Shown here: one piece after another, positions 3,912 through 17,965 of the stretch
Layout: each line of letters starts with the position of its first letter
Numbering within the stretch: the stretch's first letter is position 1
Virus record (IMG/VR): IMGVR_UViG_3300009370_000913
Location: 1 to 20,009 of that record
Reading direction: 5' to 3' (one strand)
Length of the DNA stretch: 20,009 bases
Source of the DNA: a virus
Position numbers and translations under genes: made by a program
The notes under the pieces: generated by a model
What the model was told of the DNA's origin: nothing
Seen by the model: only the letters and a program-made list of their open reading frames with translations
Database searches by the model: none

Positions 3912-4488
3912 GGGCTCCTCCTCTGGAGTTTTTCCAATCAAGAATATGAAGTAAGGTCGGCCCAGCGCGACCATCGCGCCAAACAAACCAACCGTATGCG
4001 GTGCTATCAGTAGCTCCCTTGGTGAATGAAGGTCGCTGGGCCAGCACGTACACCTCGCTTGGCGGGTGCTCGGCCCAGAAGGGTAACCGTCTCGAAGACT
4101 CTAAAAAGCCCAGCCGAAGCAGGAAGGCAACGTTCCTGGCGAGGCCAAGCGCGTGCCGGATGTGAGCCTCGGCCTCTCGGTACGGAGGATTCCCGACAAT
4201 CCACTCGGGGATCTCGTGCCGCTCGGGGATGTACTCCAAGAAGTCTGCGACTCGCGAGCACACCCTGGGGTGAGAAAGCCCGGGGGCTTCAGGGTCGATG
4301 TCCATCGCCTGGACCTTCATGGTCTTCGAGCAGAGTGCCCGAACGAACGCCCCGCCACCCGCGTGAGGCTCCAGTACTAAGGCGTCCGCCTGGATGGGTA
4401 ACTCTTTCACTAGCGCAAAGGCCAGCTTGTCAGGGGTGTAGTAAGCGTCACGGTCGATGCGATCACTGTGGGCTCGGGCACGGCTCAT
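3889..4488 (-). CDS. DNA methyltransferase, NPPY type (probably adenine-N6)
   Basis: A 199-residue S-adenosylmethionine-dependent DNA methyltransferase. Residues 14-20 (DAYYTPD) are the family's lead-in. The cofactor loop is LEPHAGGGAFVRAL (39-52), the acidic residue DID lies at 63-65, and the catalytic motif NPPY at 100-103 fits amino-methylation of adenine (N6) or cytosine (N4). There is no separate target-recognition domain and no restriction enzyme beside it, so it is a solitary phage enzyme, probably protecting phage DNA or regulating expression. The ATG at 4488 overlaps the polymerase stop by one base (TGATG), and AAGGAGG lies just upstream, so expression is coupled to the polymerase. 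The TTG at 4491 is not needed. Site specificity cannot be read from sequence. Confidence 0.88.
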   Translation of the reverse strand: MSRARAHSDRIDRDAYYTPDKLAFALVKELPIQADALVLEPHAGGGAFVRALCSKTMKVQAMDIDPEAPGLSHPRVCSRVADFLEYIPERHEIPEWIVGNPPYREAEAHIRHALGLARNVAFLLRLGFLESSRRLPFWAEHPPSEVYVLAQRPSFTKGATDSTAYGWFVWRDGRAGPTLLHILDWKNSRGGAHGIKNHN

Positions 4489-7028
4489 CAATCCTCCTTC
4501 CAGCGGTCGAGGATCTTCGCCTCTGCGGTGAACTCAATGCCCAACGCTTCTTGGTGAAGACACTCCTCGACGATTCGTTTAGTTCGCTCCGCCCGCTTCT
4601 CCGGTACGAGGTACAGGACGGAGTCGTGGGTCTGGTTACACAGCCCGATGCCCTTGGAGAACCGGAACGGGATGCGCTGCTGTAGCGCCAGCAGCCCTCG
4701 GGCTACGATGGCGAAGCCACCTGCCTGCCCAATCCAGTTGGCCACCACAGACAGGTCCTCCCCGTCCGCACAGTCCCGGCGTCGGCCAGAGATGGGCTCG
4801 GCCACGTACCCTAACTGTCGCCAGGATTCGAGTTCGGTTCCCCACCACTCCGAGAACTGGGGGGCAGCCCGCAGCCAGCGACGATGGAGAGCAGCAACCT
4901 TCCGTACCGTGTAGTTGGCGTAGATGAGGTTACCCTGCTCGTCCTCCCGCTTGATGAGGTTGGAGTGAATGGTGTTGACCCCAGCCCCGTAGAGCGCGGC
5001 GTAGCACAGCGTCTTCGCTAGGTCCCGGGCTTCTTTGAACTTCCCTTTGCCCTTCTTGGTGCGGTCTGCTGGGGCTCCGGGGATCTCCCAGTACTCGGGG
5101 CCAAACATCGCTTGGCCAGTCAGCCCGTGGGGCTCGATGGGGATGGTCCCTGCGAACGAGTCGATGTACTGGGTAGCCCCGGCTACTGCCGCACACAGGC
5201 GTAGCTCAAGCTGATCCATGTCAGCGTACACGAACTTGAAACCCTCGGGGGCTACGAACACAGCCCGCAGATCATACGGGACGTTCTGGAAGTTGGGATT
5301 CGAGGAGGAGAACCGGGCCGGAGTACCATGCGCGGAGTAGTCCGCGTGAATCCGCCCATCTTCCAAGGCCATCTCACCCCAGGGCTCCAGGTAGGTGGTG
5401 ATGAGCTTGTCTGCTCTGCGGTAGAAGCGGAGAGCCTTGATGAAGTGCTTGCGCTCTGTCGAAACCACCGGGCTGCACAGTAATCCACGCAGTGACCCGT
5501 CGTTGGAGCTAGGCAAACCTCCGGGAGTAATCTCCTGAAGCGGGAGCTTCCACTTATCGAAGAGAAGGTTGCTGACTTGCTGGGGAGAGCGTGGGTTTAG
5601 CCCTTGGGCGAGGTGCTGGATGGTGTTGTAGTACGATTCCCGCCGGACAGTCTGCTTTTCGAGTAGCTCGACCCGCTTGGCCTCGTCGATGGGGATCCCC
5701 ACACGCTTCATCCCCACGCAGAGACTTTGAAGCTCGTGATCCTGCTGGTGTAGATGGTTCTGGCGTCGTTTGCGTACAGAGTGTACAAGAGGACGGACGG
5801 CCCGTCTGGTAACGGCTACATCCCTACCATTGTAGTGATGTAGCTCAGCATCAGTGGCAGCGTCGGCTCCGGCATGTTCGGATTTCCAGGCGGGCGCGTC
5901 CGTGAACTCTGCACCTACGAAGTTAAGCCGGTGGGCTACTTCGCAGTTGTGTAAGCGATGAAGAAGGATGCCGTCGATGTGAGGCTTCGGCGTAACCTTC
6001 AGGCAATTCTCGGTGATGATGCGGTCGAAGTAACCGCTGTTCCAACCCACCTTCATCAGGCGTGGATGGGTGAGGATCTTCTGCAGTACCCGGCGCATTC
6101 GGTCGAACTCCTCAACGGAGTACCAGTCCTCGCCAGTCTCCATGGAGATCCAGGGGATGACGTAGGCTACGTCCTCGGTGCCAATCCCCAGGCACTTGGG
6201 CTCGCAGAGCAGGATGTCGTCTGCCCGGGTGGTTTCCCAGTCGTAGGCAATCGTGTACTGTCCGGTCCCCGCCTTCTCGATCCAGATCTTGGCAGCGTTC
6301 CAGAGTTCCATGGGGGTCGGCCCCACTACCACATGTGGCTCGAACCAGTCAAGGGTTCCCTCGAAGTGTCGCTTCGCCTTGGCCACATCCCTACGGAAGT
6401 AGGGTCGGCGACGTGCCCCACGGAGAACTGCCGAGGGATCGAACGTCACCAGGGCTCGGGCTGTAGGAGCCCTGTCGTCGCCCCACATGATGGGTCGCCA
6501 CGCAGTGTCCAGGTACAGGGGGAAGCCTCGGTACGAAGAGATCTTCGGGTTCCCCGGCACGATCCCCTTCAAGGCCTCAGCCCCCATCAGTAGGAGGTTG
6601 GCCTTGCGTTCCAGTTGCCACGCCAGTTCCCGCTCCAGGCGGGGGCGACAAGCCTCTTCGGGCGTGAGGTACGGGTCCAGCCCGTCAGCCTCTCGCTTCT
6701 TCGACATGCGCTTGATGCGTGTATCCGCCACCTCCTTCTCGTCCCGAGGGTAGCGACACGCCACGATGTGGGTGTACGAGGCGCTCTTGCGCTTCTTCCA
6801 GCCGACGAGCTTGAGCCCATCGGCCATCTCGGCCCCACCCGGGCCGATGAGGGGGCGACCTCGCAAGGACTCCTGCTTGCCGGGTGCGCCGGTAACTACC
6901 AAAAACTGTCCGCTTTGGTGTAGCTCTGCGGGCACCGGGGCTAACTCGTCCCCGTCCCTGCGGTACAGGGCGGCCAGACCACACTCCGCGCAGCGGGCGT
7001 GCGTAAGACACTCCTCTCCAGGCGTCAT
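4488..7028 (-). CDS. UDG-like domain fused to family A DNA polymerase with 3'-5' exonuclease
   Basis: An 846-residue replicative polymerase in three parts. Residues about 1-215 resemble a family 4 uracil-DNA glycosylase: four Cys that fit its Fe-S cluster (13, 16, 91, 127), GAPGKQE (47-53), RPLIGPGG, GAEALKG and FDPSAVLR. The usual GE[A/G]PG reads TGAPG, and the usual HPS reads DPS, so glycosylase activity is doubtful. The 3'-5' exonuclease follows, with DWE (D263, E265), D335 and YNGRD (D403). The family A palm has motif A YADMDQLELRL (D603), motif B RDLAKTLCYAALYG (K672; Tyr 676 aligns with T7 Tyr526) and motif C THDSVLY (D802). The frame opens with TTG at 7073, but the ATG at 7028 has GGAGG 5 nt upstream. 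N-terminal UDG-like domains are known from some phage polymerases, such as SPO1. Confidence 0.95.
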   Translation of the reverse strand: MTPGEECLTHARCAECGLAALYRRDGDELAPVPAELHQSGQFLVVTGAPGKQESLRGRPLIGPGGAEMADGLKLVGWKKRKSASYTHIVACRYPRDEKEVADTRIKRMSKKREADGLDPYLTPEEACRPRLERELAWQLERKANLLLMGAEALKGIVPGNPKISSYRGFPLYLDTAWRPIMWGDDRAPTARALVTFDPSAVLRGARRRPYFRRDVAKAKRHFEGTLDWFEPHVVVGPTPMELWNAAKIWIEKAGTGQYTIAYDWETTRADDILLCEPKCLGIGTEDVAYVIPWISMETGEDWYSVEEFDRMRRVLQKILTHPRLMKVGWNSGYFDRIITENCLKVTPKPHIDGILLHRLHNCEVAHRLNFVGAEFTDAPAWKSEHAGADAATDAELHHYNGRDVAVTRRAVRPLVHSVRKRRQNHLHQQDHELQSLCVGMKRVGIPIDEAKRVELLEKQTVRRESYYNTIQHLAQGLNPRSPQQVSNLLFDKWKLPLQEITPGGLPSSNDGSLRGLLCSPVVSTERKHFIKALRFYRRADKLITTYLEPWGEMALEDGRIHADYSAHGTPARFSSSNPNFQNVPYDLRAVFVAPEGFKFVYADMDQLELRLCAAVAGATQYIDSFAGTIPIEPHGLTGQAMFGPEYWEIPGAPADRTKKGKGKFKEARDLAKTLCYAALYGAGVNTIHSNLIKREDEQGNLIYANYTVRKVAALHRRWLRAAPQFSEWWGTELESWRQLGYVAEPISGRRRDCADGEDLSVVANWIGQAGGFAIVARGLLALQQRIPFRFSKGIGLCNQTHDSVLYLVPEKRAERTKRIVEECLHQEALGIEFTAEAKILDRWKED

Positions 7029-7140
7029 GGCTCCTCCAAAAGCGTGGCCCCGTTTCGTGCTCCGGTGGGGCAAGGCCGGAATGATTCTGCGTCCAGGCTA
7101 GTAAACGCAGCGCACTATGGAAGAGCTTCAGGCAAGTGAT

Positions 7141-12675: not shown

Positions 12676-13617
12676 ATGGCTAGGTTCTCCCAGCTAGTCC
12701 CTTGGATGGAACCCTTACTCGCCGAACACGAAGACTGGCTCAGAACTGAGCCCCCGTTGCCGGAAGTGAAAGCCAAACTAGGACTCGACACAGTCCACAA
12801 GGCAAAGCAACTGCGGTACTACCTGCGACAGAACGCAGAGAGATCCGTAAAGCAAGACGGGCAGGTAGCACCGCAGCCGCAAGAAACGATTCATCTGGTC
12901 ATCGGGGATGCGCACGTAGCTCCTGGCCAGAACCTTCGAAGATTCACTTGGCTGGGACGTATGGTCGCAGCCTTGCGCCCGACCAATGTAATCTCTATCG
13001 GAGACTGGGCCACCATGGAGTCACTCTCTTCTTACGATAAGGGTCGACGATCCTCGGAAAACAAACGATACAGCAAAGACATCTCCGCCGTCAATGAATC
13101 CCTTCGCCTCTACCATCGGCAACTGCCTCGGGACTGGGCCCCCAAGCACGACATCACCATGGGGAACCACGAGTACAGAATCATCCGGTTCGGTGAGGAC
13201 ACACCACAGATGGACATCTGTGACTACGAAGACATGGAGTTCGCCAAGTGGGGGTGGGAAGTCCACCCGTTTCTCCAGCCCGTCACCATCGACGGCATCA
13301 GTTACAGCCACTACTGGCAGAACCAGAACAGTCGGTTCCCCATCGGCGGCGTGAACGCAGCCCGGAACCTGCTGCTGAAGAAGCACATGTCCTGCGTGGC
13401 AGGGCACTCGCACCTCCTCCAGTGGTACACCATCAGCACCGAGCAGCGGCGACTGCACGGGCTTGTCTGCGGCAGCTACTTCGAACACCGAGAGAGCTAC
13501 GCGCATCAGTCCAACGATGGTTGGTGGTCAGGCATCTGCGTTCTCCGCAACGTAAGGAACGGAGACTACGACCTGGACCTGTGGTCGATGGACCGAGTCA
13601 AGAAGGAGTTTGGGTAA
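12676..13617 (+). CDS. Calcineurin-like metallophosphoesterase
   Basis: A 313-residue phosphoesterase with the two-metal active site: GDAH (D78, H80), SIGDW (D110), GNHE (N164, H165), SHYW (H212) and GHSH (H244, H246). The first 65 residues are a separate helical part (VKAKLGLDTVHKAKQLRYYL) that resembles a DNA-binding or dimerisation region; this is not proven. Substrate unknown: members of the fold cleave phosphoproteins, nucleotides, or DNA (Mre11/SbcD). The ATG at 12676 is preceded by GGAG; a TTG one codon earlier is not needed. It is the only sizeable plus-strand gene, and its last 20 bp overlap the 3' end of the endolysin gene on the other strand. Confidence 0.88.
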   Translation: MARFSQLVPWMEPLLAEHEDWLRTEPPLPEVKAKLGLDTVHKAKQLRYYLRQNAERSVKQDGQVAPQPQETIHLVIGDAHVAPGQNLRRFTWLGRMVAALRPTNVISIGDWATMESLSSYDKGRRSSENKRYSKDISAVNESLRLYHRQLPRDWAPKHDITMGNHEYRIIRFGEDTPQMDICDYEDMEFAKWGWEVHPFLQPVTIDGISYSHYWQNQNSRFPIGGVNAARNLLLKKHMSCVAGHSHLLQWYTISTEQRRLHGLVCGSYFEHRESYAHQSNDGWWSGICVLRNVRNGDYDLDLWSMDRVKKEFG

Positions 13618-14299
13618 TCAGGTGTGGCTCCAGGCCCAGGAACATTCCCCGGGCAATCGCCTCACTGCCCTCGTCAGATGCCATGTACTGTGCATCCTTC
13701 AGGTGCGTGAAGAACCCAGCCTCCACCAAGATGGCAGGCATCCAGGTCTTCCGCAGCATGTAGAAGTTCGCCTCGTACTTCCCGCCCCGCACCCGGAGAC
13801 CGAGGTTCGGCGTGTCTCGGTAGCCCTGCATGACCGAGCGGCACAGGTCATCAGCATCGGTGTGCCCCGGGCTTGTGAACACGGCCACGCCATCGCCTGA
13901 CTGGGACGGACCCCGAAGCACGTTACCCATGGCGTTCCCATGAATGGACACGAGACAGCACCGCTTCCCCTCGCTGCGCAGCGTGCTGTACACAGCATTA
14001 GCGTAGCTTACTCGGGACGTGAGGCTCGGGTCTCGCCACTCGAACGAGGTACCGTCGAGCTTCGGGGGCGCAGTGATCTCTGCCTGATCCACCGTGGAGT
14101 ACACGGTGACCCCGGCGGACAGCAGCAAGTCAATCAACCGGGCTGCGTGTCGTCGGTTATGCACACCCTCGTAGAAAGTCCACTCAGGGTCCACGTCTGT
14201 ATGTGTGTACCGTTTCCCCCGAGGGGTTTGATACACACCCGTGTCGGGATCTATCCCACCGTGCCCCACGTCAATGAAGACGGCATGGACGGGCCTCAC
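13598..14299 (-). CDS. Endolysin: N-acetylmuramoyl-L-alanine amidase (Amidase_3)
   Basis: A 233-residue zinc amidase that cuts the bond between muramic acid and the peptide stem of peptidoglycan, releasing phage at lysis. Zinc ligands and catalytic residues are visible: DVGHGG (H13), YEG (E44), SIHGNA (H120) and VEAGFFTH (catalytic E193). There is no signal peptide and no cell-wall-binding repeat, so it needs a holin for access. The start is GTG at 14299, overlapping the stop of the 48-residue membrane protein by 4 nt (GTGA), which implies translational coupling; there is no separate Shine-Dalgarno. The 3' end overlaps the phosphoesterase gene tail to tail. Confidence 0.92.
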   Translation of the reverse strand: MRPVHAVFIDVGHGGIDPDTGVYQTPRGKRYTHTDVDPEWTFYEGVHNRRHAARLIDLLLSAGVTVYSTVDQAEITAPPKLDGTSFEWRDPSLTSRVSYANAVYSTLRSEGKRCCLVSIHGNAMGNVLRGPSQSGDGVAVFTSPGHTDADDLCRSVMQGYRDTPNLGLRVRGGKYEANFYMLRKTWMPAILVEAGFFTHLKDAQYMASDEGSEAIARGMFLGLEPHLITQTPS

Positions 14300-14442
14300 A
14301 AATTACAACCGCAGATGTCGAAGGTCACGATAGTGGCGACACTCGATCCGATGATGACGCCGACGAAGCCAACGAGCCACCAGATGGGTAACTGTTTAGT
14401 GATACCCCACGCAGTGACGAGCACGGTCTTAATCAATTCCAT
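14296..14442 (-). CDS. 48-residue single-span membrane protein, candidate holin
   Basis: A short frame starting MELIKTVLVTAWGITKQ, followed by a membrane span PIWWLVGFVGVIIGSSVATI and a short tail with CGC. AGGGA lies 7 nt before the ATG. The stop codon overlaps the GTG start of the endolysin (GTGA), and a good promoter lies upstream. A small membrane protein fused in translation to an endolysin gene without a signal sequence is the usual position for a holin, so I propose that role. Most holins have two or three spans, so a one-span holin or an export-helper role are both possible. Confidence 0.65.
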   Translation of the reverse strand: MELIKTVLVTAWGITKQLPIWWLVGFVGVIIGSSVATIVTFDICGCNL

Positions 14443-14467: not shown

Positions 14468-14496
14468 ATTCTTCTCTAACCGTTTCGCCCTGTCAA
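14468..14496 (-). promoter_or_regulatory. Sigma70-type promoter for the lysis genes
   Basis: On the minus strand a perfect TTGACA (14491-14496), a 17-bp spacer and AAGAAT (14468-14473, four of six) lie about 25 nt before the candidate holin ATG. It occupies the 61-nt gap after the 84-residue gene. Confidence 0.6.
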
Positions 14497-14503
14497 TGCC
14501 GAT

Positions 14504-14758
14504 TTAGTTCACATCCAGGTCGGCGAGTTCTTGGCCGAGCATCTCGTCAATCATCTCAAGCATCGGGCTAAGGATCTGTTCGTGGGCAATCACGACAGCA
14601 GCAAGCTCCAGGGCTGCCTCCTTCCACACCACGTTAGCGTCCTCCGAGTTCTCAGCGGACAACTTCAACACTGCTTCCGCCAAGCTGACTTCCACAGCCA
14701 GTCGGCACTGCAACTGCGATACGTGCGCAGGCTCCAAGCAATCAGTATCCATGTCCAT
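14504..14758 (-). CDS. Small acidic helical protein
   Basis: An 84-residue protein not recognised. It is Asp/Glu- and Ala/Leu-rich and probably all helical (VEVSLAEAVLKLSAENSED, EAALELAAVVIAHEQIL, EMIDEMLGQELADL). Net charge is strongly negative, which would fit a DNA mimic or a protein-binding inhibitor, but nothing proves that. AGGAG lies about 6 nt before the ATG at 14758. It follows the Cys-containing gene by 8 nt and ends just before the lysis promoter. Confidence 0.65.
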   Translation of the reverse strand: MDMDTDCLEPAHVSQLQCRLAVEVSLAEAVLKLSAENSEDANVVWKEAALELAAVVIAHEQILSPMLEMIDEMLGQELADLDVN

Positions 14759-14766
14759 AACGTCTC

Positions 14767-15117
14767 CTATTGTTCTTCAGTGAAGGTTTCGTCCAGCTTC
14801 ATTACCCCGAGAGCCAAGCCCTCGATGGCACAGTCTGGGCAGAGGGGAAACCCCTCGGTCATTATCCAACCCGCAGACATAGCCTCCGGGCCGAGTGATA
14901 TAATTTCAAGTGTGCCGATCTCATCGGCCTCAAAGAAATCCTCGCCTAGTGCGATACCAATTTCAAGTGTCGTGAATACTGTGGACGTACACGCTTCACG
15001 CTTGTTCCATTCTTCGGCTGCCCAGTCCTGGGCTCCCTCCGACTGTAATTTGATCTTAGTCCGTCCACACTTCAAGTCTCCTTCGCAATCCATTTTACCA
15101 TCCAGGTGCCTAGGCAC
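14767..15117 (-). CDS. Unknown protein with CxxC-type pairs
   Basis: A 116-residue protein, not recognised. Cysteines occur near the N-terminus (DCEGDLKCG), in the middle (REACTST) and as LCPDC near the C-terminus, so metal binding is possible. The rest is acidic (GEDFFEADEIGTLEII). The start is unclear: GTG at 15117 has GGAGG very close (3 nt), and its codon lies inside a 14-bp perfect palindrome; ATG at 15093 gives MDCEGDLKCG but has only a weak Shine-Dalgarno. Upstream lies the run of inverted repeats that separates it from rIIB. Confidence 0.6.
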   Translation of the reverse strand: MPRHLDGKMDCEGDLKCGRTKIKLQSEGAQDWAAEEWNKREACTSTVFTTLEIGIALGEDFFEADEIGTLEIISLGPEAMSAGWIMTEGFPLCPDCAIEGLALGVMKLDETFTEEQ

Positions 15118-15118
15118 C
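15105..15118. repeat. 14-bp perfect palindrome GGTGCCTAGGCACC
   Basis: Perfect dyad with no loop, lying over or just upstream of the start of the 116-residue gene. Perfect short palindromes at a start region are typical operators, so a repressor site is a reasonable guess. No other copy was noticed in the window. Confidence 0.55.
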
Positions 15119-15121
15119 CCC

Positions 15122-15147
15122 CTCCCGCACTCAGGATATCACGGGAG
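15122..15147. repeat. Inverted repeat CTCCCG/CGGGAG
   Basis: CTCCCG at 15122-15127 and CGGGAG at 15142-15147 with a 14-nt loop that contains GATATC. Alternative pairing of CACTC (15128-15132) with GAGTG (15045 positions further, at 15145-15149) overlaps it. A weak hairpin on its own, noted because it is part of a series. Confidence 0.4.
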
Positions 15148-15167
15148 TGTCTAGGGCACGGATGATT

Positions 15168-15222
15168 TGTCGAGGTGAATGGGGACTGACTCTTTCCAAA
15201 CAGTCACCCACTCACCTCGACA
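15168..15222. repeat. Long hairpin, about 20 base pairs
   Basis: Arms at 15168-15188 and 15201-15222. The outer 11 bp (TGTCGAGGTGA/TCACCTCGACA) pair perfectly; one mismatch, then four pairs, a one-base bulge and five more pairs lead to a 12-nt loop. No T-run follows on either strand, so it is not a standard terminator. In rIIB mRNA it would form a stable 3' structure. Confidence 0.75.
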
Positions 15223-15244
15223 GGACAGCCCCACCTAGCTGCCC
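15223..15244 (-). repeat. Short hairpin right after the rIIB stop
   Basis: On the minus strand GGGCAGC and GCTGTCC (15238-15244 and 15223-15229) form a 7-bp stem including one G-T pair, with an 8-nt loop. It begins 2 nt after the rIIB stop codon and abuts the long hairpin. Confidence 0.5.
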
Positions 15245-15246
15245 TC

Positions 15247-16011
15247 TCAGTTCACGATACCATCCGACGCTTCCCAGACAACGCTCTCGCGCTTGCCTTC
15301 GCAGTCACCGACGACGGTGTACTTGCACACCCTCATCTTTTGGTGGTCACAGTCATAGGGGACACATACCACATCGGCAGGGTCCACCTTGACCAAGACG
15401 GTGTGCGGCCCGAAGCCACTCGCGTACTCGTAAGCCCCGACGTGGAGCCCAAAGTGACAACCCAGGGCAGGGTCGTCCGAGATTTTGTTACGCGGCATCT
15501 CCACGGTAGCACCGATGGCATTGCTGATGGTCTTGGAATACTGATCCATGTAGTCCGAGGTCACTCCCTTGTAGGCAACGAAGTATCCATCCTCAGTGAT
15601 GGAGAAGCCTTCGTTGTGCTGCAAGAAGCGGAACAACTGCTCGGTGGAACGCATACTCGGGTTCAGGCGGAGTCGATCCCAGAACGCCAGGAAGTGTTTC
15701 ACTGGGGCATTCTGGTTGACGTGGCGCATGATGGCATCACCAAGCTCCACGGGCAGGGCATCCTCTCCACGAAAGATCTGTCCGTCCTTGTGGTGGAACT
15801 CTCCGTCTGCCCAGGACACAACCTGGGTGGTCAGGGATGCACACCTCCGGACGATGTCCCAGTCCTCATCGAGGATGGCATCCCGCAACTGGAAGTAGCG
15901 GTCAACCTCTGAGACATGGACCGTATGGGCCACGCCGTCGATGCACACGAAGATGTTCTCCCCCGTAATGGAGAAGGGCACGCCTTCGGTAATTTCAATC
16001 TGCTTGTTCAT
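15247..16011 (-). CDS. rIIB: RIIB-like protein
   Basis: A 254-residue homologue of the T4 rIIB lysis-related protein (T4 RIIB is about 312 residues). Diagnostic blocks are FRFLQHNEGFSITEDGYFVAYKGV, EMPRNKI, a CHFGLHVGAYEYA segment and VKVDPADVVCVP before a conserved C-terminal KMRVCKYTVVG stretch. In T4, rIIA and rIIB act together at the membrane, affect lysis timing and are needed in hosts carrying lambda rex; the biochemical role is unresolved. The ATG at 16011 has AAAGGAG 8 nt upstream, with the Shine-Dalgarno lying in the end of rIIA; the genes overlap by 17 nt. Two hairpins follow the stop. Confidence 0.9.
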   Translation of the reverse strand: MNKQIEITEGVPFSITGENIFVCIDGVAHTVHVSEVDRYFQLRDAILDEDWDIVRRCASLTTQVVSWADGEFHHKDGQIFRGEDALPVELGDAIMRHVNQNAPVKHFLAFWDRLRLNPSMRSTEQLFRFLQHNEGFSITEDGYFVAYKGVTSDYMDQYSKTISNAIGATVEMPRNKISDDPALGCHFGLHVGAYEYASGFGPHTVLVKVDPADVVCVPYDCDHQKMRVCKYTVVGDCEGKRESVVWEASDGIVN

Positions 16012-17965
16012 TGTCTTGCTCCTTTGCTTGTTCCTCATCGAGGAACTTGATGATTGCAGGCCACTGTTTCAGGCTTTGCAGGGACCGGAACCAGTTACTC
16101 CTAGGGTAACCAAGTACCGGGTATCTCTCTGTGAACTCGTCATGAGTGAAGGTTGGTTTGGGTAAGGTTGTTCCTGGCGAAGCCCAGCACATGTACAGCT
16201 TCGCTTCGCCATGACGAGGAATGCCTCGACCAATGAGGACCAGGGGATGGTCTTCCCCAAGGACTTCAGCGAAGGGCTTCATCCTCTCTTTGCTACCCCA
16301 GTTGCCCCACTGGTCATGGTCTACCTGTTGTTGGCAGGCCTCGGGGTTCGCCTTGATCCAGGCATCAGCCTTGGCTCTTGCGGCAAGAGCCAGTTGCTGC
16401 CCAGGGATCTCACCTGTGTATGCGAGCTTCACCCCGTAGACCTCGGTGTCCTTCGCCAGGACATTCCGGGCTGCGAGGGGCTCCTCCGAGATGAAGCGGT
16501 TGATGCGCACCCACACCCCATCGTCTGGAATGGTGTCCACTGCCTCCCAAGCCTTGGACTTGTGCCTCCCGTCGAGGCGGCTCTCATCCACTAGCTTGAA
16601 GAACGTACCCCGTGGGGCAGAGGACCGTGAACGCACACGCTCGGCCTTGGGCTTCAAGGCATACTTGTCCACCATTCGCACCGGGATACCCTTCAGTCCT
16701 GAAGCAGCGAGCCACGCCCGCAGGGCTTGACCGAACTGGGGCATCGTCATGTTGGGGTGCGGAGTGACCAAGAGGTACTCATCCGAGTCTCCGGGCAGTT
16801 CCCTGGAGTTGATCCGGGTCCGCTTCGGGTTCAGCATCAGGCCCTTGAAAGCCATGATGCTACCTCCCCACCCTTTCTTCGACGCCCACCGACCATCGCG
16901 GTTCAACGCAAGGGTAGCCACTCGAATGGCATTCAAGCCCTTGGGCTGACCCACCGAGGGCAGCTTCCGCCGCAGTTCCTCATGGTCTCGCTTGACTCGT
17001 TGTTCCCAGCCACCGAACTGTCGGACGCGCTGCCTCAACTCCCAAGGATTCTTGACGGCCTCAAGATCTTCGGTGAGCTTCTGTCGTAGCTCATCCCAGA
17101 AGGCCTCTTGCTTCGCCTTGATAGCCTCAACAGTCCGGTCAGTAAGCGCCACACCCTCCCGGTTGGGAGTGATGTCGACGTCACCGATGTTCATGAACAG
17201 GTAGATGTCACCCTGCATCTTGGGCTGAATCTTCGACGAGTCAATCTTGTACGGCACGCCGCCCATGAGGACGTGGAGATTCCCCCAGTAATTCTCGGAC
17301 AGAACACCCCCGCTCTCGGTCTTGACGATCCACTCGGGAGCCAAGTCCTCTCGCTTGGGAATGATCTCGGGCACCGGATCAAAGAACCGGTACAGGTTCC
17401 GAGCCTTATCCTGAAAGGTGTAGACGTCCTTAGGTTGCACCGGGATGACCACTTCCAACCCTGTCTCGTCACCGCAGGGTTCAGTGTGTACACACCGGAG
17501 AACACCCGTGTCCCGCTCGTCCAGCGTACAGGTGTAGGTGGACTTGATGCCCTTGTGCCGGGAGATCACTGTGAACGTATCGGTGTACGCATACGGTGAC
17601 TTACACCCATACCCAAAGGTTCCGATAGCAGCATCGGAACCTCGCTTGTCCGAGAACCCGAAGCTGGTGAATCGAGTCGCCATGAACTCGGGGCTCAACC
17701 CCAAGCCATAGTCCCGAATGGACAGGCGGGGCTCGAAGGATGTTGGCAACAGCACCTTGAACGGTACATCAGGAATACCCGCAGCGACATGTGCGTCGTA
17801 AGCGTTGGTCCCGATCTCTCGGATAGGTGCCAGGGGTTTGTCCGAGTACAGGTAGTCTCGGAGGGTGCGCATAATATGCGCAGCCCCTGACTCATCAATC
17901 GAGAACGTTGCCTCCATCGTTGCCGGTGAAGTGGTCAACGTCCTCTCTACAATTTGTGGTTTCAT
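15995..17965 (-). CDS. rIIA: RIIA-like GHKL ATPase-fold protein
   Basis: A 656-residue homologue of T4 rIIA. The N-terminal GHKL (gyrase/Hsp90/MutL) ATP-binding fold is visible: N-box PIREIGTNAYDAH (E50, N54), G1 box IRDYGLGLS (D85, G87, G89) and G2 box GTFGYGCKSP (115-124). The middle contains DVDITPNREGVALTD, another conserved part of this family. The C-terminal part is less conserved and ends with an acidic, Gln-rich tail. It pairs with rIIB immediately downstream. The ATG at 17965 follows AAAGGAG with a 6-7 nt spacer; the GTG at 17968 is not needed. It overlaps the previous gene by 71 nt. Confidence 0.93.
   Translation of the reverse strand: MKPQIVERTLTTSPATMEATFSIDESGAAHIMRTLRDYLYSDKPLAPIREIGTNAYDAHVAAGIPDVPFKVLLPTSFEPRLSIRDYGLGLSPEFMATRFTSFGFSDKRGSDAAIGTFGYGCKSPYAYTDTFTVISRHKGIKSTYTCTLDERDTGVLRCVHTEPCGDETGLEVVIPVQPKDVYTFQDKARNLYRFFDPVPEIIPKREDLAPEWIVKTESGGVLSENYWGNLHVLMGGVPYKIDSSKIQPKMQGDIYLFMNIGDVDITPNREGVALTDRTVEAIKAKQEAFWDELRQKLTEDLEAVKNPWELRQRVRQFGGWEQRVKRDHEELRRKLPSVGQPKGLNAIRVATLALNRDGRWASKKGWGGSIMAFKGLMLNPKRTRINSRELPGDSDEYLLVTPHPNMTMPQFGQALRAWLAASGLKGIPVRMVDKYALKPKAERVRSRSSAPRGTFFKLVDESRLDGRHKSKAWEAVDTIPDDGVWVRINRFISEEPLAARNVLAKDTEVYGVKLAYTGEIPGQQLALAARAKADAWIKANPEACQQQVDHDQWGNWGSKERMKPFAEVLGEDHPLVLIGRGIPRHGEAKLYMCWASPGTTLPKPTFTHDEFTERYPVLGYPRSNWFRSLQSLKQWPAIIKFLDEEQAKEQDNEQAD

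Follow-up and report, generated by a model that had tools for sequence, protein, structure and literature searches.

The window analysed here is a 20,009-base virus record whose minus strand carries, in order, rIIA, rIIB, an intergenic gap, p116, p84, p48 and an amidase, with a plus-strand metallophosphoesterase gene convergent with the amidase. The gap extends from the rIIB stop (15247) to the candidate p116 starts (GTG 15117 or ATG 15093) and holds a row of predicted hairpins:

rIIA, 15995..17965, minus strand: start at ATG 17965 or GTG 17968; PHROG 612, E 4.2e-93
rIIB, 15247..16011, minus strand: start at ATG 16011, chosen by its SD, AAAGGAG; PHROG 609, E 4.7e-55
Hairpin 1, 15222..15245, minus strand: nine pairs including G-U, starting 1 nt past the rIIB stop codon
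Hairpin 2, 15168..15222, minus strand: more than 20 pairs including G-U, one bulge, no T-run behind it
Fold 3, 15097..15166, minus strand: a larger hairpin, imperfect, in which the SD-like GGGAGG of p116 would be paired
SD-like GGGAGG, 15121..15126, minus strand: upstream of p116, mostly paired
14-bp perfect palindrome GGTGCCTAGGCACC, 15105..15118, no strand: belongs to fold 3 or to the form that competes with it
p116, 14767..15117, minus strand: next gene, starting at GTG 15117 or ATG 15093; no family
p84, 14504-14758, minus strand: downstream gene
p48, 14296-14442, minus strand: 48-residue hydrophobic ORF preceding the amidase
Amidase/endolysin, 13598-14299, minus strand: downstream of p48

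Coding and RNA-gene content of the gap

Since the genes flanking the gap all lie on the minus strand, that strand is the natural one on which to read its signals. A coding role was rejected, the inner minus-strand ORFs being just 26–27 codons long, and a PHROG search with the plus-strand ORFs that overlap the gap returned no match. No tRNA was found in it, an Rfam search of the gap gave no family at gathering score (the only matches were to miRNA precursors, far below their gathering scores) and a promoter scan of the same stretch gave nothing convincing. A stable, trans-acting small RNA produced by the gap would suit a compact, very stable stretch of 150 nt without coding content, but the searches yielded no Rfam match, promoter signal or homologue for it, and we regard such an RNA as highly improbable.

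Elsewhere on the minus strand, a promoter-like TTGACA-17-AAGAAT lies at 14468-14496, about 25 nt upstream of p48; sites of this type are as numerous in the record as chance gives. The DNA polymerase A gene (4488-7073, minus strand) has a match to the uracil-DNA glycosylase superfamily at residues 57–227 (E 8e-7), N-terminal to and ahead of the polymerase domain.

Unequal folds between rIIB and p116

A sequence-only reading of this DNA had described four dyads at 15105-15244, none followed by a T-run. All four were recovered at about those coordinates and no T-run lies behind any of them; a terminator scan was also blank here, and the hairpins do not have the form of a canonical intrinsic terminator, a G+C-rich hairpin followed by a T run. 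As a set the four dyads are unequal, with hairpin 2 far beyond chance, hairpin 1 robust and the palindrome and 6-bp arms each at chance level. The 16-nt arms of hairpin 2 (15168-15183/15207-15222) are 94% Watson–Crick and the pairing extends inward to more than 20 pairs. Folded alone, hairpin 2 reached −38.9 kcal/mol (z −8.0, with none of 200 shuffles as good), and its pair probabilities were about 1 in a wide context. Hairpin 1 alone gave −15.0 kcal/mol (z −3.2), with pair probabilities of 0.95–1.0 in a 550-nt context for all but the outermost pair. The minus-strand RNA spanning 15093-15250 (158 nt) folded at −88.4 kcal/mol (z −7.0), which none of 200 shuffles equalled, and in a scan of both strands with 140-nt sliding windows the gap had the lowest folding z of the 20-kb record, −8.6, against a background with a mean z of −0.5 (s.d. 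1.2). The window has two places with inverted repeats of 15-nt arms and no more than one mismatch; five shuffles produced none. A second long inverted repeat, with arms CTGCGGTACTACCTGC / GCAGGTAGCACCGCAG and a loop of about 34 nt, lies at 12811-12876 within the metallophosphoesterase gene. Its minus-strand fold is the stronger (−41.4 vs −31.6 kcal/mol on the plus strand) and, as it sits downstream of the amidase on the minus strand, it could be the end of that message.

The remaining two dyads are weaker. Shuffles give 1.4 ± 1.2 perfect 14-bp palindromes per 20 kb, so that a single one is at chance level, and no second copy of the palindrome was found with up to three mismatches. Folded alone, the palindrome and the 6-bp arms (15122-15127/15142-15147) had a z of just −1.15, and they are probably pieces of one larger fold, fold 3 (15097-15166; −35.6 kcal/mol alone, z −3.5). 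We term this fold uncertain because a competing form with two small hairpins has a probability of about 0.66 in the 550-nt context. A separate operator at the palindrome, as had been suggested, is not borne out by these counts.

Strand asymmetry also bears on whether the dyads act as DNA or RNA. Folding of the gap is 17 kcal/mol more favourable on the minus strand than on the plus (−88.4 vs −71.1 kcal/mol). Where hairpins 1 and 2 are robust, their non-Watson–Crick pairs are minus-strand G-U pairs (15242-15225, 15237-15230 and 15211-15179), and the plus-strand equivalents at the same sites are A-C mismatches. Because folding is strand-biased and G-U pairs are present, the data favour selection on RNA of the rII strand rather than on a DNA operator, on a sample of three pairs only. 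A DNA-level element, be it an operator or a replication-initiation region built on the dyads, could draw on the several dyads, among them a perfect 14-bp palindrome, that the gene-free stretch contains. We consider it highly unlikely, since the palindrome is of a kind expected about once in such a length and occurs singly, the strand bias and G-U pairs indicate RNA, and the gap, at about 56% G+C, has no AT-rich stretch. The earlier proposals of a structured RNA from the rII transcript or an RNase-resistant mRNA end are consistent with the strand-biased fold and with its position at the rIIB stop.

Fold 3 may in addition hide the p116 ribosome site. In the computed ensembles, the mean pairing probability of the SD-like GGGAGG was 0.84 when the 5′ arm of fold 3 was present and 0.41 once it was removed. 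A mainly translational role, in which fold 3 covers this site and read-through rII messages leave p116 unexpressed, has precedents in T4 genes e, soc, 49 and I-TevI. Nevertheless, AUG 15093 stays unpaired (pairing probability 0.08) and the p116 start is ambiguous between it and GTG 15117; fold 3 itself has a comparatively modest z and a competing form, and hairpins 1 and 2 are left unexplained. We consider this role quite unlikely to account for the gap.

Hairpins behind rIIB in distant phages

Searches of phage records with megablast and blastn detected no close relative of the gap, and neither did viral-contig scans with single proteins (rIIB, p116 and DNA polymerase). At best, rIIB identity reached 47% in viral contigs (alignment-based scans) and 43% in genome contigs; in phage records it was about 35% across most of the protein's length. 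Exact patterns taken from hairpins 1–2 and from fold 3 had no match. Four loci that matched a pattern with both hairpin 2 arms were rejected as homologues on account of their unrelated context: three look coding, and the fourth (L092) contains an intergenic hairpin with no other resemblance.

The comparison was then made by position. For 85 rIIB loci, obtained by clustering at 75% protein identity, we picked out the best single hairpin in the 80 nt past the stop. This hairpin beat all 19 dinucleotide shuffles at 40 of the 85 loci, compared with 15 of 120 other long-ORF ends (Fisher p 4e-8), a comparison limited by spurious long ORFs among the controls and by dependence among loci that clustering does not remove. 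Hairpins of −22 kcal/mol or stronger followed rIIB at 30 of 85 loci vs 30 of 250 controls, and just two in the 85-locus set outdid hairpin 2 (−38.9). Among the tails of 35 strong post-rIIB hairpins, 21 had at least four T in 8 and 12 had two T or fewer. Within the near-identical pairs L103 and L102, and L096 and L097, stem differences preserve the pairing. Phages thus tend to keep a hairpin at the rIIB end, often an ordinary terminator and sometimes one without a T-run; these hairpins are analogues of those in the window by position, not homologues by sequence. The conclusion previously drawn from the missing T-run, that ordinary termination does not explain the dyads, was too strong, because many distant rII operons have T-run terminators at this very position.

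The survey suggests that the rII operons of very distant phages tend to finish in a strong hairpin, T-rich or T-less, at the same place, and it makes these operons a ready basis for comparison in the dispute over whether T-less hairpins end transcripts. Six distant loci with T-less hairpins after rIIB (L019, L021, L022, L029, L102 and L103) have a DUF932-like gene upstream of rIIA–rIIB, as the window does. At another, L048, what looks by eye like a tRNA gene (about 4925-5000) sits directly behind the post-rIIB hairpin. rIIB-like proteins were also found on bacterial contigs and large plasmids (L159–L177; plasmid matches H94–H103), their carriers including Mycobacterium, Mycolicibacterium, Nocardia, Variovorax and Methylobacterium, and several of these genes are followed by strong hairpins.

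A candidate boundary of the rII message

We propose that the gap is an RNA boundary element in which hairpins 1 and 2 set the 3′ end of the rIIA–rIIB mRNA, a reading that, on balance, we think somewhat probable because the strongest folding outlier of the record lies on the coding strand and because a hairpin is enriched directly after rIIB across the 85 loci. In this model, hairpins 1 and 2 would form in the RNA directly past the rIIB stop codon, and would then either act as a T-less hairpin cluster that slows and releases RNA polymerase, or block 3′ exonucleases. As a further step, fold 3 would repress p116 translation on any message that reads through. Computation shows the strength of the fold, its strand bias, its position at the stop codon and the hairpin habit of distant rII operons; an RNA end at the gap, its way of forming and the repression of p116 are inferred. 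Termination in particular must contend with the missing T-run and with in vitro work, as cited in PMC5335608, in which mycobacterial polymerase was reported to require a U-tract; a hairpin cluster must accommodate a hairpin 2 stem that is longer than typical. If correct, the boundary suggests a possible way in which the rII message of this phage is set apart from the genes leading to lysis.

Sequence alone does not separate RNase III cutting or protection from 3′ exonucleases from termination. Hairpin 2 might be an RNase III site at which a single rIIA-to-amidase message is cut into rII and downstream mRNAs. Its near-perfect stem of more than 20 pairs with a bulge is intergenic and T-less, the genes form a co-directional row on one strand, and the gap lacks a convincing promoter; the stem thus has the length (about 20 pairs or more) and intergenic position of such a site, with a shared rIIB–p116 message presumed from gene order. 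Against this, the frequency of T-run terminators at the same place in relatives points to ending rather than cutting, and we judge an RNase III site unlikely. Still less probable, and very doubtful in our view, is that the three folds make up a timed switch, with the cluster ending most rII messages early and a later change (ribosome load, a phage protein, or a cut, either in hairpin 2 or in fold 3's 5′ arm) freeing the p116 site. Were this so, the genes leading to the amidase would be opened, and rII and lysis genes would be coupled through one RNA element.

In phage T7, the early mRNA is cut by RNase III at intergenic sites into separate mRNAs. Hairpin 2 resembles these sites as a long intergenic stem in one message with no U-tract; it differs in being nearly perfectly paired and in being a candidate drawn from a predicted fold.

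In phage T4, the lysozyme gene e is silenced on early read-through messages by structure in its leader (PMC3014915). The leaders of T4 genes e, 25 and 38 (PMC3014915) are like fold 3, as predicted, in placing RNA structure over a ribosome site downstream of earlier genes, and gene 25 is further alike in that about 27 nt separate the SD-like sequence from ATG 15093, with a small hairpin between them in one conformer. By contrast, fold 3 is not known to have a promoter in its 5′ arm, and the p116 start is ambiguous. With AUG 15093 unpaired as well, the parallel with gene e is a lead only.

The preferred reading, a boundary set by hairpins 1 and 2, has its nearest counterparts among U-less (I-shaped) terminators and hairpin clusters, which have been described although the class is disputed (PMC5335608, PMC8355165); early-region terminators of actinophage phiC31 without poly-U tails are among the cases cited (Ingham et al. 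1995, cited in PMC5335608). For hairpin clusters credited with ending transcripts in the absence of a U-tract, the published rule is a spacing of <15 nt between hairpins and a distance of no more than 80 nt from the stop (PMC8355165). Hairpins 1 and 2 and fold 3 show this spacing: hairpin 1 begins 1 nt past the stop and directly adjoins hairpin 2, and at most a few nucleotides separate hairpin 2 from fold 3, likewise with no U-tract. One predicted stem in the gap is much longer than is typical of those clusters. The T-run terminators that follow rIIB in other, distant phages (for example, L056, L096 and L142) share the operon and the position directly past rIIB, and differ in their T-run and in hairpin sequences unrelated to those of the window. 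The gap is of a known kind, a T-less cluster of intergenic hairpins closing a phage operon, and is unusual in its strength.
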